A stretch of DNA of 56,318 bases, taken from NCBI GenBank assembly GCA_017619615.1, contig JAFZRY010000012.1:1-56318 (forward strand), in the 5' to 3' direction. The notes beneath the pieces were generated by a model, which saw nothing but the letters and a program-made list of their open reading frames with translations, searched no databases and was not told where the DNA came from. Source of the stretch: Lachnospiraceae bacterium. Lineage in GTDB: Bacteria > Bacillota > Clostridia > Lachnospirales > Lachnospiraceae. Shown piece by piece: positions 3,968 through 32,443 of the stretch. How positions within the stretch are numbered: position 1 is the stretch's first letter; each line of letters starts with the position of its first letter. A program made the translations under genes and the position numbers.

Positions 3968-4086
3968 GCGGTCAAAGGGTCCTTTTCAGGCGGCGGACAG
4001 GCCGCGCCGGCGGGGCGGGTCTATCGGGCGGCCGGCGGCTGCCCGTATGGTTTATTTCCCGGGGAGCCGATGGCCCCCTGCATTCA

Positions 4087-8699: not shown

Positions 8700-8708
8700 G
8701 CGGCCCTC

Positions 8709-10163: not shown

Positions 10164-10205
10164 GGGGCCTCCGTCTCACGGTCCGGGCGTGCCGGGCCGG
10201 AAGGG

Positions 10206-11021: not shown

Positions 11022-11036
11022 GCGGTTGAATACTCC

Positions 11037-16292: not shown

Positions 16293-17261
16293 TTACTGCG
16301 GATCCGCCTCGCCCAGCCCCACGATGGTGCTGACATTCTCGCTGCCCATGTAGTAGGTGGGCAGGATGCCGTTCCACTGCTGGACGTAGTAGTAGGTGAG
16401 CAGGTCCTTGGTCAGCCATTCGGCGATGGCCTTGTTCTTGGCGGCTTCCTTCTGGCCCGCGTATTCCGCGGCGTCCGCCTGGATCTTGGTCACGGCCAGA
16501 TCGGCCTCGGCCTGGATCTTCGCGACGTCCGCGGCCGCGTTGGCGTCGATGACGTTCCGTTCGGCCTGCGCCTTCTGCTCCATGGTCTTCTGCGCCTGCT
16601 CGATCTCCGCCTGCAGGCGGTTCTGCGCCGCGACCTGCTTGGCTTCCACCGCGTTGGTGAAGGCGTCCGTGAAGTCCATGTTCTCGATGGAGGTGCCGAC
16701 CACCACGATGTTGTAGTGCGCCAGTTTCTCGCTCAGCAGCTGCTCGATCGCCGCGTTCAGCTCATCGCGGGCGGACACCAGGTTCTCCGCCGTATAGCGC
16801 GCCGTCTTGACCTTCACCGATTCGGAGATGTTCGGCACGATCACCGTGTCGTAGTACGACGTCCCGATGGTGCTGTAGATCGTCATGGCGTTCTCCTTGC
16901 TGATCTGGTAGTTCAGCGTGTAATCCACGGTCACTTCCTGAATGTCAGAGGAGAAGCAGCTCAGCTGCACCGCTGCCTTCTGGACCCGGTTGTCCAGGTT
17001 CACCACCTTCTGCCACGGCAGCTTGGGATGGATGCCGGCGTCCAGGGTGAAGTTCTCCACCCGTCCGAAGGTGGTCACCACTCCCGTGTGTCCCGTGGGG
17101 ACCGAGGTGAAGCACGCGCTGGCCACCAGCAAGGCGGCGATCAGGGCTGCCCCGGCCACGGGAAGGGTGAAGCTCCGTTTGGTCCCGTTGCGGTCCTTCA
17201 GAATGTTTCCTATCACGATACCCACGATCAGGACGATGACTGCAATGATCACTCTTTCCAT
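16293..17261 (-). CDS. SPFH/prohibitin-domain membrane protein
   Basis: 322-residue protein with two N-terminal hydrophobic helices (VIIAVIVLIVGIVIGNIL and AALIAALLVASACF). The SPFH/Band 7 domain follows (VPTGHTGVVTTFGRVENFTL...QLSCFSSDIQEVTVDYTLNY). A long Ala/Glu/Gln-rich coiled coil then extends to about residue 275 (AEIEQAQKTMEQKAQAERN). Such proteins form ring-like membrane assemblies that scaffold proteases or organise lipid domains. The two tandem helices before the SPFH domain are slightly unusual; most have one. The start follows AAGGAGGAACCAAAC. A TATAAT box lies at 17288-17293, but I see no convincing -35. Confidence 0.9.
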   Translation of the reverse strand: MERVIIAVIVLIVGIVIGNILKDRNGTKRSFTLPVAGAALIAALLVASACFTSVPTGHTGVVTTFGRVENFTLDAGIHPKLPWQKVVNLDNRVQKAAVQLSCFSSDIQEVTVDYTLNYQISKENAMTIYSTIGTSYYDTVIVPNISESVKVKTARYTAENLVSARDELNAAIEQLLSEKLAHYNIVVVGTSIENMDFTDAFTNAVEAKQVAAQNRLQAEIEQAQKTMEQKAQAERNVIDANAAADVAKIQAEADLAVTKIQADAAEYAGQKEAAKNKAIAEWLTKDLLTYYYVQQWNGILPTYYMGSENVSTIVGLGEADPQ

Positions 17262-17304
17262 GTTTGGTTCCTCCTTTTCTTTCCGCCATTATAGCGCGCC
17301 CGCC

Positions 17305-17341
17305 GCAAAATAAAAGAGCCGCCGGAGAAAAATACCGGCGG
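17305..17341 (-). terminator. terminator of the HTH regulator operon
   Basis: CCGCCGG / CCGGCGG stem (17319-17325 and 17335-17341) followed on the minus strand by CTCTTTTATTTT. Confidence 0.85.
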
Positions 17342-17372
17342 TTATTTTGTCCGTTTCGGGGGAATGGGTCCT

Positions 17373-17882
17373 TTACGGGTTTTTATATCTCTCATACAGT
17401 TCCATATTGATATGGCCCTCCGCAAGCATCCGTTCGGCCCAGAGGCGCAGGCCCTCCGCGGTCTCGGATATCTTCGCGAGATTCTCCTGAATGCGGACGA
17501 AATCTTCCACTTCTTCGTCCTCTACCTGGCCGTTGGAGGTGATTTCGATCAGGCGGTCGCGCTTCTGCTGCATCGCGTTCAGGGAGGCCAGCATCTCCAG
17601 GACGATCTGGGGCAGGCTGCGCGGGGCGATCTCCGGCACGTGGGTCTGCCCGATGGGACACTCGCGCGCGCAGAAATAATTGCAGAGCGCCGGGGCCTTG
17701 TAGCCGCGCGCCATCAGCAGCACCTCGTCCGGATGCGGCACGCTCTTTTCGCTCTCGATCTTCTCGATGCGCTCCGGGGAGAGCCCCTCCAGCAGTTCCG
17801 ACGCCTTTTCGCGCGACAGGCCCAGTTCCTCCCGCTTCAGCTGGTACATGTTTTTATTTTCCTTGACCGATACGCGTCCCAT
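17373..17882 (-). CDS. XRE-type helix-turn-helix protein with Cys-rich insert
   Basis: 169-residue cytoplasmic protein. Residues ~12-60 form a Cro/C1-type HTH (LKREELGLSREKASELLEGL...IEKIESEKSVPHPDEVLLMA). The segment NYFCARECPIG that follows occurs in a clostridial family of small HTH proteins; its two cysteines may bind metal or sense redox. The C-terminal half is helical (LPQIVLEMLASLNAMQQKRDR) and may mediate oligomerisation. The start at 17882 follows GGAAGGAG. It lies 27 bases after the small membrane protein gene, so the two are probably cotranscribed. Target genes unknown. Confidence 0.85.
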   Translation of the reverse strand: MGRVSVKENKNMYQLKREELGLSREKASELLEGLSPERIEKIESEKSVPHPDEVLLMARGYKAPALCNYFCARECPIGQTHVPEIAPRSLPQIVLEMLASLNAMQQKRDRLIEITSNGQVEDEEVEDFVRIQENLAKISETAEGLRLWAERMLAEGHINMELYERYKNP

Positions 17883-17909
17883 AAAACTCCTTCCGCGGCC
17901 GCGCCGCCT

Positions 17910-18452
17910 CTATACTTCGTCGAAAGCCACCCGCACAGCCAGGTCCGTCAGTTCGAGTCCCAGGATGTACACGTGGAAACTCAGGTGGTGCGGCGGATCC
18001 ATCAGCAGCGTAACGCTGATCCCGATGCTGAGCAGCGCCTGCAGGATGTGGAGGACGTGCCCGATCTCCTTGCCGTCCCGGTGGATCAGCCCGAACAGCG
18101 CATGGCTGATATGCCGCGCCGCCAGGAGCAGCGCCAGGATCCCCCAGACCGCGCCGATCAGGTTGTCCGTATCGTTCCGGCGCAGCAGCACCACCACCGC
18201 CAGGATCAGGAAAATGATTGCGTTCGCGATCTCGTCCGTATCCTCCGTGTCGTAGCTTTTGTCTTTCAGCGCCTCCCACAGATAATCTCCCGCGATGATG
18301 AACAGCATCGCGCCTAGGATGAACGGCAGCCCCTTCCGGATCACATCCGACAAAAAGAAGCAGATCACCCCCGCGGCAAAAATGACCCCCGCCGAGAACA
18401 GCCGGGTCCTCCGGATCAGTTTTTGATGGTGCTGCGGTAAATGTCGCTGCAT
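17910..18452 (-). CDS. small integral membrane protein (DUF308/HdeD-like)
   Basis: 180 residues with about five hydrophobic segments: FSAGVIFAAGVICFFLSDVI, GLPFILGAMLFIIAGDYLW, IANAIIFLILAVVVLL, NLIGAVWGILALLLAARHI and ILQALLSIGISVTLLM. The repeated two-helix pattern with short loops resembles DUF308 proteins such as HdeD; this family call is tentative. The SD AAGGAGAGG precedes the ATG. It is upstream of, and likely cotranscribed with, the HTH gene. Confidence 0.75.
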   Translation of the reverse strand: MQRHLPQHHQKLIRRTRLFSAGVIFAAGVICFFLSDVIRKGLPFILGAMLFIIAGDYLWEALKDKSYDTEDTDEIANAIIFLILAVVVLLRRNDTDNLIGAVWGILALLLAARHISHALFGLIHRDGKEIGHVLHILQALLSIGISVTLLMDPPHHLSFHVYILGLELTDLAVRVAFDEV

Positions 18453-18514
18453 GGTCCTCTCCTTTTCTCCGAAGAAATCTTAACACAAAAAAACCCGCCT
18501 GTCACCTGTTCATT

Positions 18515-18567
18515 TGCAAAAACAGGGCCACTGAGGGGAGGCACTTCGTAAAGAAGTCGCCTCCCTC
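18515..18567. repeat. dispersed palindromic repeat, copy 1
   Basis: GCAAAAACAGGGCCACTGAG leads into a hairpin of GAGGGGAGGCACTTC (18533-18547), 5-base loop, GAAGTCGCCTCCCTC (18553-18567). Related copies lie at 27713-27801 and 32904-32970, and a relative at 28092-28116. It could also terminate the LysR transcript on the minus strand. Confidence 0.75.
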
Positions 18568-18606
18568 GCTTTTATCATCAGCCTGAATGAGCGTCCTGCA
18601 GGTTTA

Positions 18607-19497
18607 TCAAGTCACAGGAGACGTAACTATACTTCTAAAATCTTCAATGAAGTCCAGCACTTTCTTCCGTGCATCCTTTTTCCAGATCAAGCCACAGGGG
18701 ACGGTCCAATCCCATTCCACCGGCAGATTCACAAGCCCCGGGTGAATATTGTTCCAACAGTCTAAAAAGAGTACTATCCTCTTTTCTTCTATGCATCGGT
18801 TCATACTTTTTAAATCATAATAGACTGACGGAGATACAATTTTGATCTCAGGATGTTCTTTTCTCATGATGGAAGAAAAAGCCATGGCAAATCTGGGGTT
18901 ACCGCGTGATGGAAAATACAGAGTCTCTCCTTCCAGATCAGAAATGGTCAAACGATCCTTCTGCGATAACGGATGACCTACCGGTACAGCGCAAGTTAAG
19001 TGATATTTCGTAAACGGCAGAAAATCTGTTCCGTCGAAAGCGCCGATATTCGGCTCAATACCAAAAGAAATCTCCGCGGATTCTGCACCTGTTGATACGT
19101 CCAGATTCAATTCATGCTCCAAACTTATCATCTGCATTGCATAACTCTGAAGGCTGGCACTGGAACGGCAGATCCGATTGAATTCCTCAATGGGACTTAA
19201 GAGAGAGGTCCCGATTCGAATGGGAGCAGATTCCGAATCAGCAAGACCTCTTGTTTTTTGAAGGATATCTTCCGAAACATCTATCAGGCGATGGCATTCC
19301 TGCAGAAACATCTTACCATGTCCGGTCAGTGTACTTCCTTTCTTTCCCCGCTCAAATAGTGAGACACCAACCGATTTCTCCAAAGCGCTCATCTGCTTCT
19401 GGATTCCCGTCGATGAAAGATGAATCAGTTCAGAGGCTTTGTGAAAACTGCCACAAGCGACAACAACTAAAAAAGTGTCGATATAATGATTATACAT
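18607..19497 (-). CDS. LysR-family transcriptional regulator
   Basis: 296 residues. The N-terminal winged HTH is recognisable (YIDTFLVVVACGSFHKASEL...STGIQKQMSALEKSVGVSLF), followed by RGKKGSTLTGHGKMFLQECH. The rest is a LysR-type effector domain with two alpha/beta lobes (IRIGTSLLSP, CAVPVGHPLSQKDRLTISDL). The start at 19497 follows GAGGTGG with an 8-base gap; the upstream in-frame codon at 19509 overlaps that SD. It is divergent from the secreted-protein gene and the usual LysR arrangement suggests it controls that gene and the transporter genes. Effector unknown. Confidence 0.9.
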   Translation of the reverse strand: MYNHYIDTFLVVVACGSFHKASELIHLSSTGIQKQMSALEKSVGVSLFERGKKGSTLTGHGKMFLQECHRLIDVSEDILQKTRGLADSESAPIRIGTSLLSPIEEFNRICRSSASLQSYAMQMISLEHELNLDVSTGAESAEISFGIEPNIGAFDGTDFLPFTKYHLTCAVPVGHPLSQKDRLTISDLEGETLYFPSRGNPRFAMAFSSIMRKEHPEIKIVSPSVYYDLKSMNRCIEEKRIVLFLDCWNNIHPGLVNLPVEWDWTVPCGLIWKKDARKKVLDFIEDFRSIVTSPVT

Positions 19498-19540
19498 ATA
19501 GCAGACCACCTCGAATAAATGATTTTAGTGAAAACCTTTG

Positions 19541-19588
19541 GTTGTCACAATGATAACATATTGGTTCTTCCAATACAATAAATACAAT
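19541..19588 (+). promoter_or_regulatory. LysR-type operator candidates and promoter of the cargo operon
   Basis: In the divergent spacer, ATTGG-TTCTT-CCAAT (19560-19574) is a perfect dyad containing a T-N11-A LysR box. Just left, GTTGTCA-CAA-TGATAAC (19541-19557) is a dyad with one mismatch. A plausible plus-strand promoter, TTGGTT (19561-19566), 16-base spacer, TACAAT (19583-19588), overlaps the first dyad. Confidence 0.5.
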
Positions 19589-19694
19589 GCTAAAATTTTC
19601 AACAGAAGCAATGGGATGAAACTACATAACACAATAAGGTGACAACAAAGGCAAGTATTACAGAAAACAACAAAAGAAAGCGAGGTAATTATTT

Positions 19695-20219
19695 ATGAAG
19701 AAAAGATGGTTAGCATTAGCAATTGTTTGTGTCCTTTGCATAAACTTTTGGGGACATACAGCAAGAGCAGGCTGGAACTGGAGTTCTGTAAAGCTTTCTG
19801 AAGCAAGCACTGCAGGCACATTTACAACGTTTTCATCACTTCAAAGATTAACATATGGTTCTAATTATTCTTATGTTTGTGGCGGTGATGTACAAGCGAC
19901 TTTTGATACCGGATATGTTGGATTACAAGGATCATTTGTCCGAAGCACTGATCGTTATGACTTTGTTATTTTAATGGAAATGGATGGAAATACTGGAACT
20001 TCAGCTCGCTCCTACACCGGATTGTTCCAAGTGGATTATGCCGGCAGATATCTTCCGATGGGCTTTTACTGCGACATGGTTTATAATACTTCGACGTCCA
20101 TCGAAAGCGATGGAGAAGTCGAATTAAAGATAAGATCCTATGTGTCTACCAATATATATGATACCTCGACTTCTGTTCCTGCCCAGATTTTTAAATACCA
20201 AGTGGGTGTAATCAATTAA
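19695..20219 (+). CDS. secreted protein of unknown function, AT-rich gene
   Basis: 174 residues. A clear Sec signal peptide (MKKRWLALAIVCVLCINFWG...TARA) is probably cleaved before GWNWSSV, leaving a ~148-residue secreted domain. That domain is rich in Tyr, Ser, Thr and Gly, with few charges and likely beta-rich (SYVCGGDVQATFDTGYVGLQ, YDFVILMEMDGNTG, FKYQVGVIN). It has only two cysteines after cleavage (in YVCGGD and FYCDM), which could form a disulfide. I recognise no family. The AT-rich codon use is unlike the surrounding genome. It heads a run of lipoprotein and two ABC genes, so it could be the exported product or a surface partner of that transporter. Start chosen after GCGAGGTAATTATTT. 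Confidence 0.82.
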   Translation: MKKRWLALAIVCVLCINFWGHTARAGWNWSSVKLSEASTAGTFTTFSSLQRLTYGSNYSYVCGGDVQATFDTGYVGLQGSFVRSTDRYDFVILMEMDGNTGTSARSYTGLFQVDYAGRYLPMGFYCDMVYNTSTSIESDGEVELKIRSYVSTNIYDTSTSVPAQIFKYQVGVIN

Positions 20220-20296
20220 TGCTTTTTTTTCATCGATTTTTTACACTAACAAGAGAATATTGGTTTTCACAACTATCTAACGGGTAGGATAAAACA

Positions 20297-21403
20297 ATGA
20301 GAAAAGCTCGATTCTCACATATAGTACTTTATATTCTTATAGGGCTTACTTTGACAGCTTGCGGGTCTGAATCTGCTCATTCGGATAGTGTGCAGAGTAC
20401 GGAAGAGAAGGCAACATTAGACTGGGGAGTCGCAGACGGGACCAGGGATACACAATCCGCTGTCGCCAGTTATCAAACCAAGACGCCTCTAAATGTCACC
20501 GCCTGGAACGCTCCTTTTGATCCGGACAGTCAGATCGGTTTTTATCGCCAGATCGCTTCGCACATGGATGATGAGACCGGTTGGTATTTTCAGTTTTGCC
20601 GGGAAGGGATCAAAAGTGACCCTGAAGAGTATCAGTACATCTGTCACGGAATGAATCTGCGGTACCGGTACAAGGATAATTATTGGGATGTGACATATTT
20701 GCAGGACAAAAAGGGAGACGGGACTGCCGTTTTCAAGAAAATAAAGTCAAAACCCGGGACGATCCATTTCGGCTTGGGTGGTGAAGATGAGAAAGCAGAT
20801 CGGGACGTGATCAATACGCTCCTGCGAAAAAAACTCCCCCCGAAGGAATTGATTGCAGAAGATCCGGATCGGTATGAATTCAAGCTGATCGATAAAAATA
20901 TGTTTTTCGATCTGATTCGGGAAGCCTTAAGCAATCCTCCTGTGGAGAACACAACTTATCTTGACTGGCCGATGTGGGCTATGCAGGTGGAACCGGAATA
21001 CATGGACGGATATAGATTTCAAATAGGTTTCTACTGCAAAATGGGCTTAATTGATGAGATTTATATCGACGTGCTGTATAAAACCGATTCCAGGTATGAC
21101 GGGTATGTTCAGCTATCTGATTTGGTAGAAGAAGGAAAAGCGGACAAAGGTCAGCAGGAAGCTTTTGAACTGATTCAAAATGTGCGTTCGGCGATTAAAA
21201 ACGAAAATCTGTTTATTGCACAGGAAGAGATGTACAAGAATAAGGAAATCGGAGGAATCGATCTTTATCGGCTGTACACATTTCTGAATGCGATCCATAC
21301 AAAAACGGATGATAATTATTACGATCTGCCGGCGGACGCCCCGCTGATCGTAGAAGAGATCTCGGAAGAAGAGTTTATAGCTGCAGGCAATACCGTTCAT
21401 TGA
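20297..21403 (+). CDS. lipoprotein of unknown function in the ABC cargo operon
   Basis: 368 residues; signal peptide with lipobox LTLTAC|GSES. A ~50-residue Ser/Glu/Thr-rich linker is followed by a folded region containing DSQIGFYRQIASHMDDETGW, DNYWDVTYLQDKKGDG and, later, DGYRFQIGFYCKMGLIDEIY. The two FYC/GFY-type segments suggest an internal duplication of a mixed alpha/beta domain. No known family recognised. The start follows GGTAGGATAAAACA. It lies between the secreted-protein gene and the first ABC fusion, on the same strand. A role as extracellular partner, sensor or immunity lipoprotein is inference from position only. Confidence 0.8.
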   Translation: MRKARFSHIVLYILIGLTLTACGSESAHSDSVQSTEEKATLDWGVADGTRDTQSAVASYQTKTPLNVTAWNAPFDPDSQIGFYRQIASHMDDETGWYFQFCREGIKSDPEEYQYICHGMNLRYRYKDNYWDVTYLQDKKGDGTAVFKKIKSKPGTIHFGLGGEDEKADRDVINTLLRKKLPPKELIAEDPDRYEFKLIDKNMFFDLIREALSNPPVENTTYLDWPMWAMQVEPEYMDGYRFQIGFYCKMGLIDEIYIDVLYKTDSRYDGYVQLSDLVEEGKADKGQQEAFELIQNVRSAIKNENLFIAQEEMYKNKEIGGIDLYRLYTFLNAIHTKTDDNYYDLPADAPLIVEEISEEEFIAAGNTVH

Positions 21404-21469
21404 CAGGTCCAATAGGAAAGTCCTGCTGATGAATCGAGGAACCGTCAGATTGAAAGCGCCGGAGGAAAT

Positions 21470-23392
21470 ATGATTACGTGCTCCGATCTGACAAAAACAT
21501 ATGACGGCGAATGTGTGATAGACCGTTTCTCCGGTCAGTTTCCGGAAAGCGGTCTGGTTCTGATGCTCGGAGAAAGCGGCAGCGGGAAGACTACCTTCCT
21601 GAATCTGCTGGCCGGATTCCTGCCGTTTGAAGGCGGAAGTATTCAATGGGGAGAAGAAGTGTACACAGAAAGAGTGCAGCATCCGGCAGCGGTTCCCTTT
21701 GATTATATTACACAAGACAGTTGTTTCGTGGATTTCCTGACGGTGGGAGACAATCTTTATCTGCTGGGCGGCGGTGACTACCGGTCTCTTTTACAGCGCT
21801 TTGGTTTGGAGGATAAGGTTGCCTCCTATCCTCTCATTCTTTCAGGCGGGGAACGGGCAAGACTGGCGGTCATCCGAGCCCTGCTGAAAGGAAAGAGGGT
21901 ACTGCTGCTGGACGAGCCGACCGCGGCGCTGGATGAAGAGAACAAGAAGACGGTTTTCGAGACACTGGATAATTTGAAAAAAGAAGTGCTGATTTTCTGC
22001 GCGACGCACGATGAGGCGGCGATCCCATACGCCGATGTGGTGCTGCATTTTTCCAAGGCGGAAAAGACGCCGTGGTCCGAAGACCGAAGAAAACCTTGTG
22101 AGCCTGAAATCAGAAAGGGAACACCGGAACCGGAACAGGAGATCCTTGTGCCGTCACCGCAGGGAAACATTGACCTGCCGGATCCCTGGCCTTTCCTGAA
22201 AAAATGGTTCACCTCCTCCCGGCGGGAGCAGCATGCCAAGTGGCTGTATCTGGTGTTTCTGACCGTCTCGGTCCTGCTGCTTCTGCTGGGTGACACACCG
22301 GCGCATAAATCGGCTGCCACGGGGGAAAACATGTATCGGATCAATACACTGGATCTGAGGATGACGAAGGGTGTGCAGCTGAGTGATCTGACTTTTGACA
22401 GGAGCGAGACGGCGGAGATCGTGGTGGACTACCGCGAGAGCTGCCCGACTGAACTGGACGGATTTATTTGGACTCTCCCCGAAAACCGGGATCTTTTCAA
22501 ACTCTCGGATGCTGTTGCGTACGGTACGTATTATACCAAACCGGAACAGGTGATCCTGAGTTATGAAATGGCGGAGTCCATGATGCACGGACAGGCGGAA
22601 CGGCTGATCGGGAAAAAGATTTCGCGAACGTTTTTCAAATTGGGAGAAGTGGAACTGGAGATCGTGGGGATCCTGAGGAAACTGAACCGCAGGGAAATGA
22701 TTTATATGAATTCCTGCGGTGCGGAGTATCTTCCGGAGAATTACGAAGCGCTGACATATGATAATCTTGTATTTGTCAATGCGGCACTCTTCCGGGATCT
22801 CACGGACGATCCCGGCCTGTACCGCGATGAAGGACAGCGGGGCTTCCGCTTTTATTTTGATTCCTATGCGGCAAGGACCCGTTTTCTGCGGAAGCATCAG
22901 GCGGCTTTCCGGGAGCAGTTCTGCTATTTGCAGTCTGACGTGCTGCATTCGATCGAGGAGTGGGAGATCCCGTATCTTTTCTGGATCCTTCTGCCGCTTT
23001 CCGTTCTGACCGCACTGTTTACATTGTTTTTCTATGCCGAATTGAACCGGATGGAATTAGTCTATAACAATTCATTCCTTTCTGTCTTCGAATATGCGGG
23101 TCATGACAGAAAGCGCCTGCTTTGGGAAATGACGAAGACCGGAACAGCGGAGTTTCTGAAACTGCTCGGGCTGGCGTTGCTTCTGGCCGGGCCGGCGGCG
23201 ATCATTGGAAACCTGCTCAATCACCGCTTCCTGTGGGTGGATTTTGAATTGTTTTCCTGGAATATTCCCCTGCTGGCCGCTTATTTCGTGCTCATGACCG
23301 CGCTGACCGTCCTGCTGCTGACACTCCGGCTGCGGAAGGTCCGATTGCTCAATTGGTATGAGAACCTGATTCGGAACAGGGATGTCCTGTGA
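21470..23392 (+). CDS. MacB-like ABC transporter, ATPase-permease fusion, subunit 1
   Basis: 640 residues. The N-terminal ATPase has Walker [19 protein letters not shown], signature LSGGERARLAVIRALL, Walker B VLLLDEPTAALDEE and switch FCATHDE. A ~40-residue linker leads to helix 1 (~258-276, YLVFLTVSVLLLLLGD). A large extracytoplasmic domain spans ~277-500, and three C-terminal helices sit near 500-524, 560-583 and 597-620. This ATPase/1-TM/ectodomain/3-TM order is the MacB/type VII ABC plan, which acts by mechanotransmission on lipoproteins, peptides or antibiotics instead of transporting through a membrane channel. The start follows GGAGGAAAT. Its stop lies 11 bases before the ATG of the next fusion, so a heterodimer is likely. 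Confidence 0.88.
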   Translation: MITCSDLTKTYDGECVIDRFSGQFPESGLVLMLGESGSGKTTFLNLLAGFLPFEGGSIQWGEEVYTERVQHPAAVPFDYITQDSCFVDFLTVGDNLYLLGGGDYRSLLQRFGLEDKVASYPLILSGGERARLAVIRALLKGKRVLLLDEPTAALDEENKKTVFETLDNLKKEVLIFCATHDEAAIPYADVVLHFSKAEKTPWSEDRRKPCEPEIRKGTPEPEQEILVPSPQGNIDLPDPWPFLKKWFTSSRREQHAKWLYLVFLTVSVLLLLLGDTPAHKSAATGENMYRINTLDLRMTKGVQLSDLTFDRSETAEIVVDYRESCPTELDGFIWTLPENRDLFKLSDAVAYGTYYTKPEQVILSYEMAESMMHGQAERLIGKKISRTFFKLGEVELEIVGILRKLNRREMIYMNSCGAEYLPENYEALTYDNLVFVNAALFRDLTDDPGLYRDEGQRGFRFYFDSYAARTRFLRKHQAAFREQFCYLQSDVLHSIEEWEIPYLFWILLPLSVLTALFTLFFYAELNRMELVYNNSFLSVFEYAGHDRKRLLWEMTKTGTAEFLKLLGLALLLAGPAAIIGNLLNHRFLWVDFELFSWNIPLLAAYFVLMTALTVLLLTLRLRKVRLLNWYENLIRNRDVL

Positions 23393-23402
23393 GGAGGGGA
23401 GC

Positions 23403-25220
23403 ATGCAGCTCACGCTCAGCCATCTGAATAAGAGCTTTGCGAAGCCGGTCCTCCGGGATATTTCCTATACGTTCGAGTCCGGGAGGCTTTACGTGATCAA
23501 AGGCATCAGCGGTTGCGGAAAAACGACGCTTCTGAACATCCTTGGCGGGATCGATGCGGAGTATGAGGGGGAGGTCCGGCAGGAGAAACCGCTTATCTGC
23601 GGTTATGTATTTCAAAAGAGCCTGCTTCTGACCGGTCTGACGGCACGGGACAACCTGCTGCTGATCCGGAACGATCCAGTGCGGGCGGAGCGGCTGGCAG
23701 CGGAATTTGGCGTCAGTTCTCTGCTGGATAAGTATCCGTCCGAATTGTCCGGCGGAGAGCGGCAGCGGGTCTCCGTGGTCCGCGCATTGCTGAACGAGCC
23801 GCAGCTGATTCTGGCGGACGAGCCGACCGCGTCGCTGGACGGGGAAAATTCGGCAAAGATCGCAGCAATGCTAGCAGGGCTGAGGCGCTCAGACCGGATC
23901 ATCGTCGTGGCCACGCATGAGAACTGCTTTGACGAACTGGCTGACGTGATCCTGCGGCTGGATTACGGGGTACTGGCAGAGGCGGCCGCTGACAGGGGGA
24001 TCCGGCCGAACTCCACAGAGACTGTCCCTTCTCCTGATCAAACAGAAAAGCGCTGCGCCGGAAAACGACTGGTGCACTGTTCTCTGAAACGCCATCCCGA
24101 ACTGCTGAAACTCAAGTCGCTCCTGCCGCTCACACTGGCTTTTCTGATGCTTTTTCTGGCCGGATCGCTACAGCAGAACTACAAAATGGAAGCGCTGCGC
24201 TTTTTTACGAAGCGTTATCCGATGGATATAGTGGTGTTTTCTAAGGAGCAATATGAAGCATTTGCCCATAAAGAATGGATCACGCTTTATGATTATCTGG
24301 AGGCGCAGGAAAACGGCGTCACTGCTTATTACCTGATGCCGGAGAAGGATTCAGTCCTGCATGCGGAAGGCATGCTGGCGTTCGGTGGTTTCCCGCAGAA
24401 AAAAGACGATGCGATCCTGACGCGGGAAGCGGCGGATATTCTGTTCCCGGGTGTTTCCTATGCGGATTGCATCGGACAGTCTTTTCTCTTTTGTGGCCGT
24501 GACTGGACAATCAGTGCGGTGACGGCAGTCCGTGACGCGCAGTTCAATACCAGTTTCCGGACGGATATCTATTATGCCTATGCGGAGCAAGCTGCCATTT
24601 TCATCGCTTATGACGTGCTGCGTGAATTGGCCGAGGTCAAAGACCCGCCTGTATATTCCAACTCCCGTATGGCGGTGGTAGAAGGGATGGCGCTGGATCC
24701 GGTGAAGCAGCAGGCGGTGAAGGAAGCGCTGACCGTCCGGGTCAAGATGCCTCCCGGCCTGGAGGAGGAAGGCGAAGAGATCGAAGGCTTTGCCAATATG
24801 TTTTACAGCCTGATCAGTGCTTCGCAGGACCGTATCGATGAAATCATGAAATACTTTTATCTGATATTTGGGCTGATCTGCTTCCTGATTTGCCTTTATA
24901 TGGTCTCAGTGATCCGTACGGAACTGTTTTACCGTCGGCAGGAACTTGGGTATCTGCAGATATTCGGTCTGCCCCGCCGGGACGTGCTGCGTATGCTGCT
25001 CGGAGAGCATGCCGTGCGTTTGCTTGCTGCTTTGGGACTTGCTTGTGCCGATTATATTGTCCTGGCCGCAGTCTATTTTATTCTTTTCGGAGGGATGCTG
25101 TATCCATCTTTCGTTACCGCCTTGCTTTGTGTTTGTGTGATAGCGCTGTATCTGCTCTTTGTCCTTTTCACTGCGCATAGGTTTCTACGGCAGAATGTAC
25201 GGGGACTGATTTCAGAGTGA
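23403..25220 (+). CDS. MacB-like ABC transporter, ATPase-permease fusion, subunit 2
   Basis: 605 residues. Walker A KGISGCGKTTLLNILGGI (~35-42), signature ELSGGERQRVSVVRALL (~115), Walker B LILADEPTASLDGE and switch VVATHEN are all intact. The first transmembrane segment is near residue 240 (LPLTLAFLMLFLAGSL), followed by an ectodomain (~260-480) and three C-terminal helices near 483, 537 and 569. The first ABC protein has the same architecture but diverged sequence, so a heterodimeric pump with two competent ATP sites is expected. The start at 23403 has GAGGAGGGGAGC immediately upstream; the in-frame ATG at 23382 lies inside the preceding gene. No two-component system is encoded next to it, unlike bacitracin-type MacB-like exporters. 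Confidence 0.88.
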   Translation: MQLTLSHLNKSFAKPVLRDISYTFESGRLYVIKGISGCGKTTLLNILGGIDAEYEGEVRQEKPLICGYVFQKSLLLTGLTARDNLLLIRNDPVRAERLAAEFGVSSLLDKYPSELSGGERQRVSVVRALLNEPQLILADEPTASLDGENSAKIAAMLAGLRRSDRIIVVATHENCFDELADVILRLDYGVLAEAAADRGIRPNSTETVPSPDQTEKRCAGKRLVHCSLKRHPELLKLKSLLPLTLAFLMLFLAGSLQQNYKMEALRFFTKRYPMDIVVFSKEQYEAFAHKEWITLYDYLEAQENGVTAYYLMPEKDSVLHAEGMLAFGGFPQKKDDAILTREAADILFPGVSYADCIGQSFLFCGRDWTISAVTAVRDAQFNTSFRTDIYYAYAEQAAIFIAYDVLRELAEVKDPPVYSNSRMAVVEGMALDPVKQQAVKEALTVRVKMPPGLEEEGEEIEGFANMFYSLISASQDRIDEIMKYFYLIFGLICFLICLYMVSVIRTELFYRRQELGYLQIFGLPRRDVLRMLLGEHAVRLLAALGLACADYIVLAAVYFILFGGMLYPSFVTALLCVCVIALYLLFVLFTAHRFLRQNVRGLISE

Positions 25221-25260
25221 ATATGCAAAACTTTTACACAACTATCTAAAACTACATACA

Positions 25261-25614
25261 GGGTCTCAGGGGCAAGGCCCATGACAAGTGGTGAGCGGAC
25301 GGCGGGAGCCGTACACTTACGTTGCTTGTTGGGACAATGCCAAGCCCTGCGAGTCTGTCTTTTTTCATACATAAAAACCGATCTCCGGCACCTCTGACAT
25401 CAGGAGATCAGCTCCAGCCTCTTGACGAAAACAAACATTTGTTCTATATTTATCTTCGCCACGCATTGACTTACAGGCCATCCTTCACAGAGATAGTACT
25501 GCTCCGGCCAATCAGGATAAGTTACATGGCATTGTCCCAACAAGCATCGCCTTCGTACGGACATTGCCTGCAATGCCGGTACGAACGCACTTGTCAGGGA
25601 CTGCCCTGAGACCC
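25261..25614. repeat. 354-bp element bounded by long imperfect inverted repeats
   Basis: This is most of the gene-free stretch 25221-25634. The outer ends are GGGTCTCAGGG (25261-25271) and its exact complement (25604-25614). Inside, ATGACAAGTG faces CACTTGTCA, and GCTTGTTGGGACAATGCCA (25324-25342) has an exact 19-base complement at 25527-25545. The arms together span roughly 80-90 bases around a ~185-base centre. The arms also hold small internal hairpins such as ACGGC-GGGA-GCCGT. No convincing ORF is present. It could be a MITE-like insertion or a structured RNA; no target-site duplication was evident. Confidence 0.7.
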
Positions 25615-25634
25615 GGAAGAGGAAAGGAAATCGA

Positions 25635-25922
25635 ATGGAAAAGACAAATGACGCTGACAGTATGCAGGACCGTCCGGAAATAAAACAGCTGCTTCAGGAG
25701 ATCACAGACCTTCTGGCCGCCATGACTAAAGAAGAACGGATCGCCTGGTTCAAGCAGACCGCGTACTCGCCGCCCGTGGAATTCGTCCGGGAGATGGATG
25801 GCACGGTCTATATCGTACGGTCCCTGTTTGACCCGGATGCCTCGGAGAACATCCCCGAAAAGGTGGAGCGGATCCTTTCAAAACCTTCTCCGGAAGGAAT
25901 TGAAGGGGGACGGCAGATATGA
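25635..25922 (+). CDS. TnpW-like transposon-encoded small protein
   Basis: 95 residues, acidic, no signal peptide. The core VEFVREMDGTVYIVRSLFDP and NIPEKVERILSK matches the small TnpW family found beside TnpX-type recombinases of Tn4451-related and other clostridial integrative elements. The family's role is not well defined. The SD AGGAAAGG precedes the ATG. A perfect hairpin follows immediately, and the recombinase starts 56 bases downstream, which is the expected neighbourhood. Confidence 0.75.
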   Translation: MEKTNDADSMQDRPEIKQLLQEITDLLAAMTKEERIAWFKQTAYSPPVEFVREMDGTVYIVRSLFDPDASENIPEKVERILSKPSPEGIEGGRQI

Positions 25923-25954
25923 TATGATCGTCTTACCTGCAAGACGATCATATC
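25921..25954. promoter_or_regulatory. perfect 14-bp inverted repeat before the recombinase
   Basis: GATATGATCGTCTT (25921-25934), loop ACCTGC, AAGACGATCATATC (25941-25954). It begins at the tnpW stop codon and ends about 20 bases before the recombinase SD. There is no T-run, so an attenuator, a protein-binding operator or a recombination site are all more likely than a terminator. Confidence 0.7.
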
Positions 25955-25963
25955 TGGCTGTGA

Positions 25964-27628
<1,665 letters not shown>

Positions 27629-27650
27629 CAGCAGCAAAAGAACGCAGAAA

Positions 27651-27675
27651 CGGCGTGACCGTTCCGATCACGCCG
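27651..27675 (+). terminator. hairpin after the recombinase gene
   Basis: CGGCGTGA (27651-27658) and TCACGCCG (27668-27675) form an 8-bp stem with a 9-base loop, 23 bases after the stop codon. No T-run follows, so intrinsic termination is uncertain. Confidence 0.4.
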
Positions 27676-27712
27676 ATAGAACAACAAACAACGATCAATT
27701 CAAATACAAAAG

Positions 27713-27801
27713 AGGTCCCGGGAGCGACTTCCTTATGGAGTGGCGCCCAGGGACGGTTCTTTCCGGCAGTGCCACCGGGAACCGTCCCCAAATGGCCCTG
27801 T
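27713..27801. repeat. dispersed palindromic repeat, copy 2
   Basis: Read on the minus strand this begins GGCAAACAGGGCCATTTGGG, continues GGACGGTTCCCGGTGGCACTGCC and ends with the CATAAGGAAGTCGCTCCCGGG half-hairpin. It shares blocks with the copies at 18515-18567 and 32904-32970. Internally GGGACGGTTC (27750-27759) faces GAACCGTCCC (27779-27788). Confidence 0.75.
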
Positions 27802-27870
27802 TTGCCTCTTGTTTTTTCGTAAAAGAGGGAGTATACTGCATTCGAAAACTATCCGGGAGGTGAAACGCAT

Positions 27871-28077
27871 ATGGAAGTGACGAAGGATACCCAGATCGGG
27901 GAACTGCTGATGGAGGATTACGGCTGCGCGGCCATTCTGATGGGCGCCGGCATGCACTGCGTGGGATGCCCCGCTTCGCAGATGGAGTCCATCGAGGAGG
28001 CGTGCATGGTCCACGGAATGGACAGCACGCAGCTGGTGAACGCGCTGAACGAGTATTTCCAGGCCAAGGAAGGCTGA
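27871..28077 (+). CDS. DUF1858-domain small redox-type protein
   Basis: 68 residues, probably cytoplasmic. It opens with the typical TKDTQIGELLMEDYGCAAIL, followed by GAGMHCVGCPASQMESIEEA. The CVGC pair plus an upstream Cys match the DUF1858/ScdA N-terminal-like family, which is thought to take part in disulfide or Fe-S chemistry. The start follows GGGAGGTGAAACGCAT. It stands alone between the right edge of the putative mobile element and a bidirectional terminator. Confidence 0.85.
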   Translation: MEVTKDTQIGELLMEDYGCAAILMGAGMHCVGCPASQMESIEEACMVHGMDSTQLVNALNEYFQAKEG

Positions 28078-28091
28078 GGCGCTTAGAAATC

Positions 28092-28116
28092 TGACAAAGG
28101 AACCGTCCCCCTGTCA
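28092..28116. repeat. short GGGACGGTTCC-type palindromic repeat
   Basis: TGACAAAGGAACCGTCCCCC followed by TGTCA: the ends TGACA/TGTCA are inverted and the centre is the same AACCGTCCCC core as in the larger dispersed repeat. A degenerate relative (TGACAGGGGGCAGTTCCCTT) occurs at 56099-56118. Confidence 0.65.
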
Positions 28117-28127
28117 GAAAAGGAAAA

Positions 28128-28160
28128 GGCGGGCCCGTGCAGGGTCCGCCCTTTTTTATT
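28128..28160 (+). terminator. bidirectional terminator between DUF1858 gene and ackA
   Basis: GGCGGGCCC (28128-28136) and GGGTCCGCC (28142-28150) followed by CTTTTTTATT on the plus strand and by TTTTCCTTTTC on the minus strand. Confidence 0.88.
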
Positions 28161-28173
28161 GCCTGAGTCCGGC

Positions 28174-29364
28174 TCAGCCGACGATGGCCACGGTCTCGCG
28201 CGCGATCGCCAGTTCCTCGTTGGTCGGAACGACCATCGCGATGACCTTGGAATCCGGGGTGGAGATAATGCGTTCTTCGCCGCGGATGTTGTTGGCTTCG
28301 GGATCCAGCTTGCAGCCCAGGAAGCCCAGGTAGGACAGGATGGTCGCCCGGACGCCGATGTCGTTTTCACCGATGCCGGCGGTGAAGCAGATCACGTCCA
28401 CGCCGTTCATGGCCGCCGCATAGTAGCCCACGAATTTGGCCACGCGGTAGGTGAACACGTCCAGCGCTTCCTGCGCGCGCTCATTGCCTTCCTTCGCAGC
28501 GCCTTCCAGGTCACGGAAGTCGCTGGAAACGCCGGAAATGCCCTGTACGCCGGACTTCTTGTTCAGCACGTTCAGCACTTCGGGAAGGGTCATATGCTCC
28601 TTGGCCGCGATGTATTCGATGATGGCGGGGTCCAGGCCGCCGGAACGGGTGCCCATGGTCAGGCCTTCCAGCGGGGTGAAGCCCATGGAGGTGTCGACCG
28701 ACTTGCCGCCGTCCACCGCGCAGATGGACGCGCCGTTGCCCAGGTGGCAGACGATGATCTTCAGATCCTTCACGTCCTTGCCCAGGATCTCCGCCGCCCG
28801 CTTGGACACGAAGCTGTGCGAAGTGCCGTGGAAGCCGTAGCGGCGCACGCCGTATTTTTCATAATATTCGTAAGGCAGACTGTACAGGAAGGCCTTGGGA
28901 GGCATGGTCTGATGGAACGCGGTATCGAACACGCCCACCATGGGGACGCCGGGCATCAGTTCCTGGCAGGCCCGGATGCCGATGATGTTAGCCGGGTTGT
29001 GCAGGGGAGCCAGTTCGCTGCAGGCTTCCACTTCCTTGATGGCCTCTTCCGTCAGCAGCGTGGAATGCGCGAATTTCTCGCCGCCGTGCACGATGCGGTG
29101 GCCCACCGCGCCGATCTCGGCCAGGGAGCCGATCACGCCGATCTCCGGATCCGTCAGTTTCTTCAGCACGCTGTCGACCGCCACGGTGTGGTTGGGCAGC
29201 GGATCCTCAAACACATGCTTCCCGCCGCCGGCCGGAGAGTAAGTCAGCCGTCCGTCGATGCCGATCCGTTCGCACAGACCCTTCGCCAGCACCTGCTCGG
29301 TGTCCGAATCGATCAGCTGGAACTTCAGGGAAGAACTGCCGCAGTTGATAACCAGAACCTTCAT
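28174..29364 (-). CDS. ackA: acetate kinase
   Basis: 396 residues, the standard length. It catalyses acetyl phosphate + ADP to acetate + ATP, the ATP-yielding end of acetate fermentation. The ASKHA-fold phosphate-binding start [58 protein letters not shown] and the ATP-site [20 protein letters not shown] are all intact. The start at 29364 follows TAGGAGG; longer in-frame starts lack an SD. It has its own promoter, and pta is not adjacent. Acetate made here could feed the But reaction. Confidence 0.97.
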
Positions 29365-29410
29365 ATTTATTTGCCTCCTAACGCTTTTGATGGCGCCGCG
29401 CGCCATTTTC

Positions 29411-29439
29411 ATTGTATCAGATTGCCCCGCCAAAAACAA
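29411..29439 (-). promoter_or_regulatory. promoter of ackA
   Basis: Minus-strand TTGTTT (29434-29439), 17-base spacer, TACAAT (29411-29416), about 45 bases upstream of the ackA start. Confidence 0.6.
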
Positions 29440-29488
29440 GGGAAGAAGCCCCGGAAATGCTGTTTTCCGCAAGGTTTTCCGATTTTTC

Positions 29489-29517
29489 TTTACTTTTCTT
29501 CCGTTTTATTCTATAAT
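29489..29517 (+). promoter_or_regulatory. promoter of the zinc-ribbon membrane protein gene
   Basis: TTTACT (29489-29494), 17-base spacer, TATAAT (29512-29517); SD GGAAGG lies 9 bases before the ATG at 29572. Confidence 0.65.
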
Positions 29518-29571
29518 CGCTTTCGCAAGCCCTGATAATGACAATGAAATGTGTGAAAGGAAGGTATTGTT

Positions 29572-30012
29572 ATGGCTTTTTGTCCGAATTGCGGTTCCCA
29601 GCTTCCGGAAGGCGCGGAAACGTGCCCCAACTGCGGCGCGCCCCTGACGGCCCCCCAGCCGGTCTACGCCTATGACCCTTCGGATCATACCGCGGAATTC
29701 GACCCGCAGGATATCGGAACCAATAAACTGTACGCGATGGCCTCTTACGTGCTGAGCCTGATCGGCGTGCTGTTCACATTCCTGGTGGCGAAGGAATCGC
29801 CCTTCGCCATGTTCCATGCCCGCCAGTCCCTGAAGATCTCCCTGTGCGAAGTGCTGCTGTGCGTCTGCATGATCGTCCCGATCCTGGGCTGGATCGCCGC
29901 CCCCGTCGGCTGGATCATCCTCTTCGTGATCCGCGTCATCCTCTTCTTCCAGGCCGCCAAAGGCCAGGCGAAGGACGCGCCGATCGTGGGAAGCCTGGGA
30001 TTCCTGAAATAA
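29572..30012 (+). CDS. zinc-ribbon domain integral membrane protein (DUF4870-like)
   Basis: 146 residues. The N-terminus is a zinc ribbon with two CxxC pairs (MAFCPNCGSQLPEGAETCPN followed by CGAP). Three hydrophobic segments follow (AMASYVLSLIGVLFTFLVA, VLLCVCMIVPILGWIAAPVG and WIILFVIRVILFFQAA), with an FHARQSLK motif between the first two, as in DUF4870/Tic20-like proteins. Function unknown. It is monocistronic with a promoter and a strong terminator, and is convergent with the caspase-like gene. Confidence 0.88.
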   Translation: MAFCPNCGSQLPEGAETCPNCGAPLTAPQPVYAYDPSDHTAEFDPQDIGTNKLYAMASYVLSLIGVLFTFLVAKESPFAMFHARQSLKISLCEVLLCVCMIVPILGWIAAPVGWIILFVIRVILFFQAAKGQAKDAPIVGSLGFLK

Positions 30013-30031
30013 GGAAGCCCGCAGATAGGAA

Positions 30032-30059
30032 AACAGAGGCCGGAAGGCCTCTGTTTTTT
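30032..30059 (+). terminator. terminator of the zinc-ribbon membrane protein gene
   Basis: AACAGAGGCC / GGCCTCTGTT stem, GGAA loop, TTTTTT tail. Confidence 0.92.
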
Positions 30060-30109
30060 GTTGTCTGGGATGAAGCGTAGGGGCCGCTGCAGGGGCGGCC
30101 CTGCCCCGC

Positions 30110-32443
30110 TTACTTAAACAGCTCGTAGCTGCTGTTTTCGGGATAGACCTGCGCGTGCTGATAGTAGTCGACGCCGTCGGACGTGTAAGGACCCAAAGCG
30201 TGCGTATATACATAGTTATACAGCTCATTGAGCGTGACCGTACCGTTCCCGTCCCCTTCCTCATCCGCAGGCTTTCTTCCGAGCGGGCCCAGTGCAAGAT
30301 ACCACCCGAAATAGGTATAGTTCAATGCCGAAGTGCCCCAGCTCATTTCCTGATGCGCAGCGGCAGTGATAACATAGAACTTCGGATCGATGAATTCGCC
30401 GGTATTGGGGGAGGCCGGAGAACCTTCCGCTTCCGCAAAGGCGGAAATCACCGTTTCGTTAAAGGCGTTCCCTTCCCATATGGCAGCGCCTGTACCGCAT
30501 GCATCCAGGAATACGATGACCTTGCCGGGGACAGCCCGCAGCCAGTCGGCCAGCATATCCATCCTGCAATAGACGTCGCCGTACGGGCCGCTCAGGAGCA
30601 GTTGACCGGCTTTATTCCCGGAAGCATGATCGATCGCCCCGTGAGTGGAAATGTAAAACAGCGAAACATCATTGTCATCGGCACCGGCATAGGCATTTTC
30701 GACGGCATCCTGCAGACCGGCCAATCCTACATCCGTCACGCTGGAAACGGTATAGCCGCGCCCCATCGGGCCTGTGACGCTTTGCAGCATATTTGCCACC
30801 AGGTCGGCGCTGCCCTGGTGGCGGGGCGCGGGATCCAGGGTGGAATAGTTGACTTCCGCGACGACCAGCGCGCGATATTTGACGGGGTTGACCGTCATCG
30901 TGACCGTATTCGAATAGACCGAGTATTCGCTGTTGTAGACCCTGCAGCGGTACTGATAGCCGTTCTGGGAATATTTCGCGCTGTTGACAGTAAAGCCCTG
31001 TGTCGTGACGCTGAGCTCGTTCCACTCACTGCTGCTGTTTTTCCGCCAGTACCACTGGTAACCGTCTTCATACCGGGTCTGCACGAAGAAGTACGCTTTT
31101 TCGCCTTCCCCGACGGTCACGCTCTTCGGCTGGGTCTTGATCACCGGGACGTGCCGGGCGGTGATGGTCAGACTTACGCCAAGAGTCCACTGCACGCCTT
31201 CGCTGTTCGTCAGTTTGCAGCTAAAGATATAATTGTTCCAGGAATATAAAACGTCGTCATACTGCAGGGTATTCGTGGTGGCGCCGTGACCCGAGCAGGG
31301 CGACCAGCGGCTTTCGCTTTCTTTCCACCAGTACCACTGGTAACTGTCCACGTTTTTGCCCGTGACCGTGAAGGTGGCGGTCCCGCCCTCGGTGATGGAA
31401 ACGCTTTTGGGCGGATCGACGATCACGGGCAGGCCGTTGACGGTCAGCGTGGCGGCTTTTGAATAAACGTAGCCGTTGTCGTTCGAGACTTTGCAGCGGT
31501 ACTGATAGCCGTTTCGGGCCATGGTGGCCGGGATCGACAGCGTGGCGGTCTTGTTTCCGGTCCTCGTGCTCTTCTGCCAGGTGCCGCTGCTATCCTCGCG
31601 CCAGTACCATTGATAACCGGTCGCGCCTGTCGCCTTGACGGTGAATTTCGCGGTCTCGCCCGCATTCTTCGTGATGCTCTTCGGCTGGGCCGTGATCACG
31701 GGTTTGAGGAGCACGGTCAGGGTGGCGGGTTTGGTGTAAACATACCCGTTGCTGTTGGAGACTTTGCAGCGGTACTGGTAGCCGTTGCGCGTTTTCGCGG
31801 CCGGGACGGACAGGGTCGCGGTCTTGTTGCCGGTCATCGTGCTTTTCGCCCAGGTGCCGCTGCTGTCCTTGCGCCAGTACCACTGGTAGGTTTTCGCGCC
31901 GGCGGCTTTGACCGTGAATTTCGCGGTCGCGCCTTCCTTGACCGACGTGCCGGCCGGCTGTGTCGTGACGACGGGTTTCGGGGTGACTGTCAGGGTCGCG
32001 GCGGAGGTGTAGACATAGCCGGAGGAGTTGGAGACTTTGCAGCGGTACTGATACCCGTTGCGGACCGTCGCGGCCGTGACCGTCAGGGTGGCGGTCGCGT
32101 TCCCGGTCATCGTGCTCTTGGCCCAGCTGCCGCTGCTGCTCTTACGCCAGTACCACTGATACGTTGTCGCACCGGTGGCTTTGACCGTGAATTTCGCGGG
32201 GCAGTTTACGGACATGGTGACATTTTTCGGCTGCGCGGTGATCGTCGGCTTGGCGTTGACGACAGCCGCGGTGACGGCAGCGGTGTTTTCCGGTGTGGAC
32301 AGGGATGCCGCATTCGCCGCGACGGCCGCACTGCCGTCCGGAAGCAGTTCAGCCTCCCGCTGAGAAGCGGCAGCAGGGATATACGTGCCCAGCATCACCA
32401 GGCACAGCAGCAGAGACAAAAACCGTTTCGTACTCGGACGCAT
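30110..32443 (-). CDS. secreted caspase-like (clan CD) cysteine peptidase with five Ig-like repeats
   Basis: 777 residues with a signal peptide (FLSLLLCLVMLGTYIPAAAS). Residues ~65-520 contain five ~90-residue Ig-like domains, each marked by YQWYW(R/W)(K/E) and most by GYQYRC(K/R)V. The C-terminal ~240 residues look like a caspase/C11-gingipain-type fold. They begin RALVVAEVNY, with the catalytic His in LFYISTHGAIDH (~601) and the catalytic Cys in VIVFLDACGTGAA (~647). The His-Cys spacing of ~46 suits clan CD. DGNGTVTLNELYNYV near the end resembles an EF-hand calcium loop. No sorting signal or membrane anchor is visible, so it is probably released or held by the Ig repeats. Substrate unknown. 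Confidence 0.85.
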   Translation of the reverse strand: MRPSTKRFLSLLLCLVMLGTYIPAAASQREAELLPDGSAAVAANAASLSTPENTAAVTAAVVNAKPTITAQPKNVTMSVNCPAKFTVKATGATTYQWYWRKSSSGSWAKSTMTGNATATLTVTAATVRNGYQYRCKVSNSSGYVYTSAATLTVTPKPVVTTQPAGTSVKEGATAKFTVKAAGAKTYQWYWRKDSSGTWAKSTMTGNKTATLSVPAAKTRNGYQYRCKVSNSNGYVYTKPATLTVLLKPVITAQPKSITKNAGETAKFTVKATGATGYQWYWREDSSGTWQKSTRTGNKTATLSIPATMARNGYQYRCKVSNDNGYVYSKAATLTVNGLPVIVDPPKSVSITEGGTATFTVTGKNVDSYQWYWWKESESRWSPCSGHGATTNTLQYDDVLYSWNNYIFSCKLTNSEGVQWTLGVSLTITARHVPVIKTQPKSVTVGEGEKAYFFVQTRYEDGYQWYWRKNSSSEWNELSVTTQGFTVNSAKYSQNGYQYRCRVYNSEYSVYSNTVTMTVNPVKYRALVVAEVNYSTLDPAPRHQGSADLVANMLQSVTGPMGRGYTVSSVTDVGLAGLQDAVENAYAGADDNDVSLFYISTHGAIDHASGNKAGQLLLSGPYGDVYCRMDMLADWLRAVPGKVIVFLDACGTGAAIWEGNAFNETVISAFAEAEGSPASPNTGEFIDPKFYVITAAAHQEMSWGTSALNYTYFGWYLALGPLGRKPADEEGDGNGTVTLNELYNYVYTHALGPYTSDGVDYYQHAQVYPENSSYELFK

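Follow-up and report, generated by a model that had tools for sequence, protein, structure and literature searches.

The cassette described here lies in a 56,318-nucleotide stretch of Lachnospiraceae DNA, referred to below as the window. It consists of a divergently oriented LysR-type regulator gene (18607-19509, minus strand; Pfam HTH_1, 4.1e-13, plus LysR_substrate) and four genes on the plus strand. The first of these encodes a 174-residue secreted protein, which we call the cargo and propose as the effector (19695-20219), with relatives at five loci including the window. It is followed by a 368-residue lipoprotein, the proposed capture and immunity protein (20297-21403), whose outer domain is reused in receptor-like proteins, and by two ATPase-permease fusions, ABC1 (21470-23392, 640 residues) and ABC2 (23382-25220, 612 residues). 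A sequence-only reading of this DNA had named the same five genes, and all are present at their positions; the LysR gene lies just beyond the interval that the reading had outlined (19541-25220). The divergent intergenic region (19510-19694) contains an 11-bp inverted repeat (19538-19548/19639-19649). Promoter-like sites (12 versus 7.9 in shuffled expectation) and terminator-like sites (8 versus 7.2) occur at near-chance numbers. Alignments with relatives of ABC2 begin at its residue 8, so its true start may be at ~23403.

Read by eye, the N terminus of the cargo is a Sec-type signal and the lipoprotein carries a lipobox-like LTAC. The cargo has no Pfam or NCBIfam match at E ≤ 1 and nothing of note among PDB sequences. 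For the lipoprotein, there is no Pfam or NCBIfam family above cut-off and no recognised family among PDB sequences, the sole Pfam trace being 26 residues of DUF6896, below cut-off. Apart from that trace, these searches agree with the earlier placement of both proteins outside recognised families. Judged from its sequence, the cargo looks like a family that has not been described before. The mature cargos are acidic (pI 4.4-5.0), a type from which many bacteriocins differ. Crude Chou-Fasman sums labelled the cargo strand-rich, which is not counted as evidence.

ABC_tran matches both ABC1 and ABC2, and neither has lost any of the Walker A, LSGGE, Walker B, and H-loop motifs. Pfam FtsX matches ABC2 only (27.5 bits, cut-off 25.5); ABC1 is assigned to FtsX via its homology to ABC2, the permease halves of the two proteins being homologous over 315 columns (hhalign 97.6%). 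This homology fits a pair acting as one transporter. By hydropathy, a single TM stretch is followed in each protein by a long outer region, and the C terminus holds a cluster of TM segments. The MacB-type (FtsX) plan is therefore present in both, and the earlier description of two different ATPase-permease fusions with this plan is borne out by domains, motifs, and hydropathy. MacB-type transporters likewise have an N-terminal ATPase, one TM, a large outer domain, and a C-terminal TM cluster; however, the operon of the cassette encodes two such proteins that differ from each other, a MacA-like gene was not recognised in the mobile element described below, and the scores lie far under the MacB model cut-off. 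A role in anti-phage defence was also considered and rejected, as the PADLOC matches were confined to the ATPase parts (best mad3, 5e-23 and 8.7e-25), which were taken as generic, and PADLOC gave no match for the cargo, the lipoprotein, or the LysR protein.

The cassette is carried by a mobile element

Downstream of ABC2 are genes for TnpW (25635-25922, plus strand; Pfam TnpW, 1.9e-07, 31.1 bits, cut-off 25) and a large serine recombinase (25979-27628, plus strand; Resolvase, Recombinase, Zn ribbon, and DUF4368). Contig 51 of a close relative, genome G633, presents the empty site: the flanks of the cassette (16293-18539 and 27750-29379) abut there, matching at 90-96%. From this abutment, we define a 9.2-kb serine-recombinase element at 18536-27753, which has an imperfect terminal inverted repeat and GGGA at both ends; GGGA is found once at the G633 empty site. 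The GC content is 39-45% across the LysR, cargo, and lipoprotein genes versus ~58-62% in the flanks. What had been called an apparent mobile element is thus confirmed by TnpW, the DUF4368 serine recombinase, and the empty site.

A second copy of the element in G633 (contig 23; L060, 4683-11416), with 95% identity over the TnpW-recombinase region, holds a different passenger. This passenger encodes 2078 residues with RHS repeats (E 9.9e-24) and, at 1835-1923, an Rhs_assc_core; behind it comes a 172-aa ORF that matches no family. An Rhs-type gene with a small following ORF is the usual polymorphic toxin/immunity plan. Recombinase DNA that is 68-72% identical was found in four other genomes of 299, with a partial match in a fifth. 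Among four distant copies examined, one contig ended early, and the others have a relaxase-type gene and other passengers (L071 by eye): L068 carries a DNA methylase, for example, and an MFS transporter lies near the copy in L070. Since the distant copies carry other passengers, the passenger argument draws on the two close copies only. The element shares with Tn4451/TnpX-type elements TnpW, a large serine recombinase with DUF4368, precise insertion, and exchangeable passengers. Unlike the L068 and L070 copies, the window copy has no relaxase among its recognised genes.

Several features surround the element. Short dispersed repeats lie at 27749-27803, which the right end of the element abuts, and at 28086-28121; most of the 62 G633 matches of window positions 25300-31000 are short pieces at these two spots. 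At 30110-32443 (minus strand) lies the gene for a 777-aa protein whose immunoglobulin-type domains (Ig_3, 4.6e-36; I-set) are most familiar from animals; G633 contig 51 matches part of this region at two further places. The genes at 7296-12749 (minus strand) may form a cluster for acylating the cell surface: they encode an AlgX-type SGNH hydrolase, an MBOAT acyltransferase, and a protein with choline-binding repeats.

Conservation of the gene order

A search for the cargo in 299 genomes of the family Lachnospiraceae (E ≤ 0.01) gave matches in five: its own genome, G279 and G266, which are clear and belong to other genera, and two that are weak and were not counted. The order cargo-lipoprotein-ABC1-ABC2 is complete in G279 and G266 and thus, with the window, occurs in three genera. 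Identities to the window proteins in G279 and G266, respectively, are ~37-39 and 30-31% for the cargo, 34 and 33% for the lipoprotein, 37 and 34% for ABC1, and 39 and 37% for ABC2. The co-occurrence that a neighbourhood survey was to look for is therefore conserved in two other genera, the LysR gene excepted. Deeper profiles, run against the same 299 genomes, found the cargo in five genomes (three strong and two weak matches) and the lipoprotein at seven places in five genomes. A scan of a species-genome collection with patterns from the lipoprotein alignment yielded 47 matching stretches and from them nine loci, two of which are G279 and G266 again; a cargo-profile search of nine genomes gave strong matches in five. 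When the first lipoprotein profile was run against 392 genomes from across the order, strong matches came from its own genome only, with two weak ones elsewhere, which indicates that the family is rare and narrow. The named relatives presumably come for the most part from goat-gut or rumen assemblies, of Lachnospiraceae and of other Clostridia. Plasmids gave no cargo or lipoprotein match, and phages gave none for the lipoprotein; in viral contigs, 28 stretches fit the lipoprotein patterns and none was a relative. One viral-contig match to the cargo (L006, 25 residues) has phage-like neighbours and was taken as chance.

In all, 14 distinct strong loci were examined (the window, L034, L007, L008, L013-L019, L046, L047, and L048). 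L014 and L048 reach contig ends, L015 and L017, from two assemblies, are near-duplicates of each other, and L014 and L015 come from one assembly. Weak matches to the cargo (L004, L005, L028, L044, and L045) and to the domain (L010 and L011) were left out of the counts. The cargo is found at 5 of the 14 loci (the window, L007, L008, L014, and L019), with two genes at L014 and so six in total, and every one of the six lies directly 5' of a lipoprotein gene. The remaining nine loci, including L048 at its contig end, lack it. At nine loci (the window, L034, L007, L008, L013, L015, L017, L046, and L047), the ABC pair comes immediately after the domain gene; six of these have no cargo gene. The lipoprotein is thus often found without the cargo and the cargo never without the lipoprotein, a pattern as in toxin/immunity genes.

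Some of these loci are rearranged or broken. L014 is an array of cargo, lipoprotein, cargo, lipoprotein, and two extra lipoprotein genes, one of them split over two frames. L019 has a cargo gene, a lipoprotein gene, and a broken ABC1 gene and adjoins relaxase and integrase genes. Among the ABC-pair loci, L034 has a stop in ABC1, and ABC2 of L046 is split in two. Because most relatives are metagenome assemblies, some of the breaks may be assembly errors. Two neighbouring features were also recorded. Directly 5' of the lipoprotein-ABC1-ABC2 set of L046 (4418-9797) is a gene for a short lactococcin-972-type ATPase (3719-4267; 213.3 bits, cut-off 254.85). Beside the L014 array (3656-5384, minus strand) are an ECF sigma gene and genes for a DUF4367 protein and a 167-aa secreted-looking protein without a Pfam family.

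Over eight loci, ABC1 and ABC2 distances correlate with r = 0.99 and ABC-lipoprotein distances with r = 0.88-0.89; without L017, the values are 0.98 and 0.80. The lipoprotein domain, ABC1, and ABC2 are inherited together. Cargo and lipoprotein distances give r = 0.16, a value reached in 198 of 720 permutations (six saturated pairs, which have little power). This result speaks against strict cargo/lipoprotein co-evolution; exchange of cargo genes would look alike.

Regulators and receptor-like reuse of the lipoprotein domain

The LysR protein had no BLAST match at E ≤ 0.01 among the ORFs of the other loci, and the regulators differ there, so control by LysR, which had been put forward as part of the unit's description, does not define it. 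At L008 and L047, genes for a GHKL kinase and a LytTR regulator diverge from the cassette. The absence of a two-component system, claimed previously, therefore holds for the window but not for these two loci. At L014 an ECF sigma gene lies further off, L013 has a sigma-factor fragment, and some loci have no recognised regulator among their neighbours.

At L034, L016, and L018, the lipoprotein domain itself is fused to a signalling protein or encoded behind a sigma-factor gene. L034, on contig 5 of the window's own genome (4419-10657), is a second, cargo-less version in which a 648-aa protein with BlaR1 M56 (E 9.8e-47) has the domain at its C-terminal end. Its order is a BlaI-type repressor, the BlaR1 M56-domain fusion, ABC1 with the in-frame stop, and ABC2. 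At L016 and L018, the domain gene comes directly after an ECF sigma gene and the domain follows a hydrophobic stretch; from this position, the proteins may have an anti-sigma role. The variety of signalling proteins to which the domain is attached is consistent with a role in ligand binding. L015 (13522-16457) and L017 (14668-16844) have, close behind their ABC genes, a separate BlaI/BlaR1-type pair whose outer domain is a different one.

Comparison with known systems

The best NCBIfam model of both ATPases is TIGR03608, the lactococcin-972 ATPase, which would suit a diverged locus of the true lactococcin-972 family. However, the scores (105.1 and 139.9 bits) are far below the cut-off of 254.85. 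The cargo does not match TIGR01653, PF09683 is unmatched across its own genome, and TIGR01654 is absent among the best 25 of 192 and the best 25 of 190 families matched. True lactococcin-972 genes do occur in Lachnospiraceae, where PF09683 exceeds its cut-off in 3 of 250 genomes, and two true loci encode TIGR03608 (265.1 and 260.5 bits) and TIGR01654 proteins above cut-off. Profile comparisons with these loci gave nothing significant, at the low power of two sequences each; for the cassette permeases, hhalign reached at most 11%, which is non-significant, in a comparison run without an unrelated 592-aa membrane protein. Based on the three family models and the weak profile comparisons, we rejected membership and consider a diverged family locus extremely improbable. 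The cassette may work alike but, having failed these models, is not filed as a member. In both the lcn972-orf2-orf3/scbABC loci and the cassette, ABC genes with a presumed immunity role come after the gene for an unmodified secreted protein. The ABC part alone is kept at lactococcin 972-like loci in 157 of 571 pneumococcal genomes (PMC11796350). In contrast to those loci, the cassette has a cargo of another family and about twice the size, an extra lipoprotein, and two ATPase-permease fusions where those loci have a single double permease and a separate ATPase.

The plan also resembles lantibiotic immunity, in which a lipoprotein and an ABC transporter are encoded with a secreted antimicrobial (NisI/NisFEG and SpaI/SpaFEG); this is a likeness of plan only. 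In nisin producers, the nisin-binding lipoprotein NisI and NisFEG are reported to act together (PMC4828448). The cassette differs in that no modification enzymes were recognised in the element, the rest of which is LysR, TnpW, and the recombinase; that LanF, E, and G are separate genes whereas its own transporters are FtsX-type fusions; and that no lipoprotein family was found to match its own. In BceAB modules with YsaD/YxeA, too, FtsX-type ABC protection is tied to signalling, and some of them include a small secreted protein; a BceAB-like pump protects Lactococcus lactis against lactococcin 972 (PMC7438565). BceB is described as having 10 TM helices with an outer loop between TM 7 and 8 (PMC7438565), a plan that the hydropathy of ABC1 and ABC2 (one TM, outer domain, TM cluster in each) does not follow. 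No description of the cassette itself was found in the titles and abstract beginnings searched, which does not prove that it is unpublished.

Discussion

With the gene order conserved, the domain present in fusions, some copies lacking the cargo, the unit mobile, and another copy of the element carrying a different passenger, we propose that the cassette is a mobile competition unit: a secreted bacteriocin-like protein with a lipoprotein/paired MacB/FtsX-type ABC module for immunity and sensing. We put the chance that this proposal is right at about even. The cargo would be secreted by Sec and act on the envelope of neighbouring cells. The lipoprotein, given its lipobox, gene pairing, and receptor-like reuse, may sit on the outer face of the producer membrane and capture the cargo, and ABC1 and ABC2 could form a paired, ATP-driven transporter that strips captured cargo from its membrane or wall target or pushes it off. 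Such action would be like that of LanI/LanFEG and BceAB, with other protein families. On the BlaR1-type protein or behind ECF sigma genes, the same domain may sense the cargo and switch on protection. Against this reading are the acidic cargo, the lack of a correlation between cargo and lipoprotein distances, the ATPases far below cut-off, the small number of cargo sequences (six), the restriction of strong order-wide matches to the window's own genome, and a passenger argument built on two close copies.

Other readings account for part of the data. The cassette could serve resistance or envelope-stress sensing against foreign antimicrobials, its cargo being an accessory modulator like lactococcal YsaD rather than a toxin. 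YsaD is secreted, encoded with a detoxification ABC transporter of the Bce type, and seems to modulate its signalling (PMC7438565). The commonness of cargo-less cassettes and the recurrence of the domain in sensor-like proteins favour such a role. However, the cargo matches neither TIGR01655 (YxeA) nor any other NCBIfam model at E ≤ 1, the L014 array holds two different cargos, each with its own lipoprotein gene, and the cargo is missing at six of nine ABC-pair loci and is therefore not needed there. Overall, we regard a modulator as unlikely. The cargo might instead be a signal or adhesion protein in cell-cell communication or surface binding, for which the lipoprotein would act as receptor while the ABC pair transduces the signal; the receptor-like reuse of the domain and the Agr-like regulators at two loci would agree with this. 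The cargo-lipoprotein array with extra lipoprotein genes and the element type that also bears an Rhs gene fit competition better, which makes a signal or adhesion role quite unlikely. It should be noted that strings of immunity genes have been described for type VII toxins (PMC9484751).

Export was weighed as well. The MacB/LolCDE-like plan and the adjoining genes would suit a secretion unit in which the ABC pair exports the cargo or releases the lipoprotein. At L034, however, the ABC pair follows the domain in its BlaR1-fused form, a protein that is no lipoprotein, and export of the cargo by the pair is unlikely because the cargo has its own Sec-type signal and six of the nine ABC-pair loci are without it. 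We thus hold a secretion unit to be a poor prospect, slightly more so than a signal or adhesion role. These results divide the original suggestion of an export/self-protection or envelope-signalling unit: a single unit, self-protection or envelope signalling, and a cargo that is likely the effector all gain, and export by the ABC pair loses. The four-gene order in two other genera and the domain in signalling proteins support one unit for self-protection and signalling.

The competition reading can be extended to the family as a whole. On this broader and more tentative proposal, to which we give clearly less than an even chance, gut Clostridia would have an undescribed family of ~150-residue acidic, Sec-secreted antibacterial proteins, with one reusable receptor domain as both shield (lipoprotein and ABC pair) and alarm (BlaR1/ECF), a system that moves between genomes and does so here on a serine-recombinase element. 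If true, gut Clostridia would be credited with a further type of protein weapon and with a receptor domain for immunity, and one receptor domain would act as shield in a free lipoprotein and as alarm in BlaR1-type and ECF-linked proteins. A profile of the domain could then locate further secreted effectors through their gene neighbourhood.
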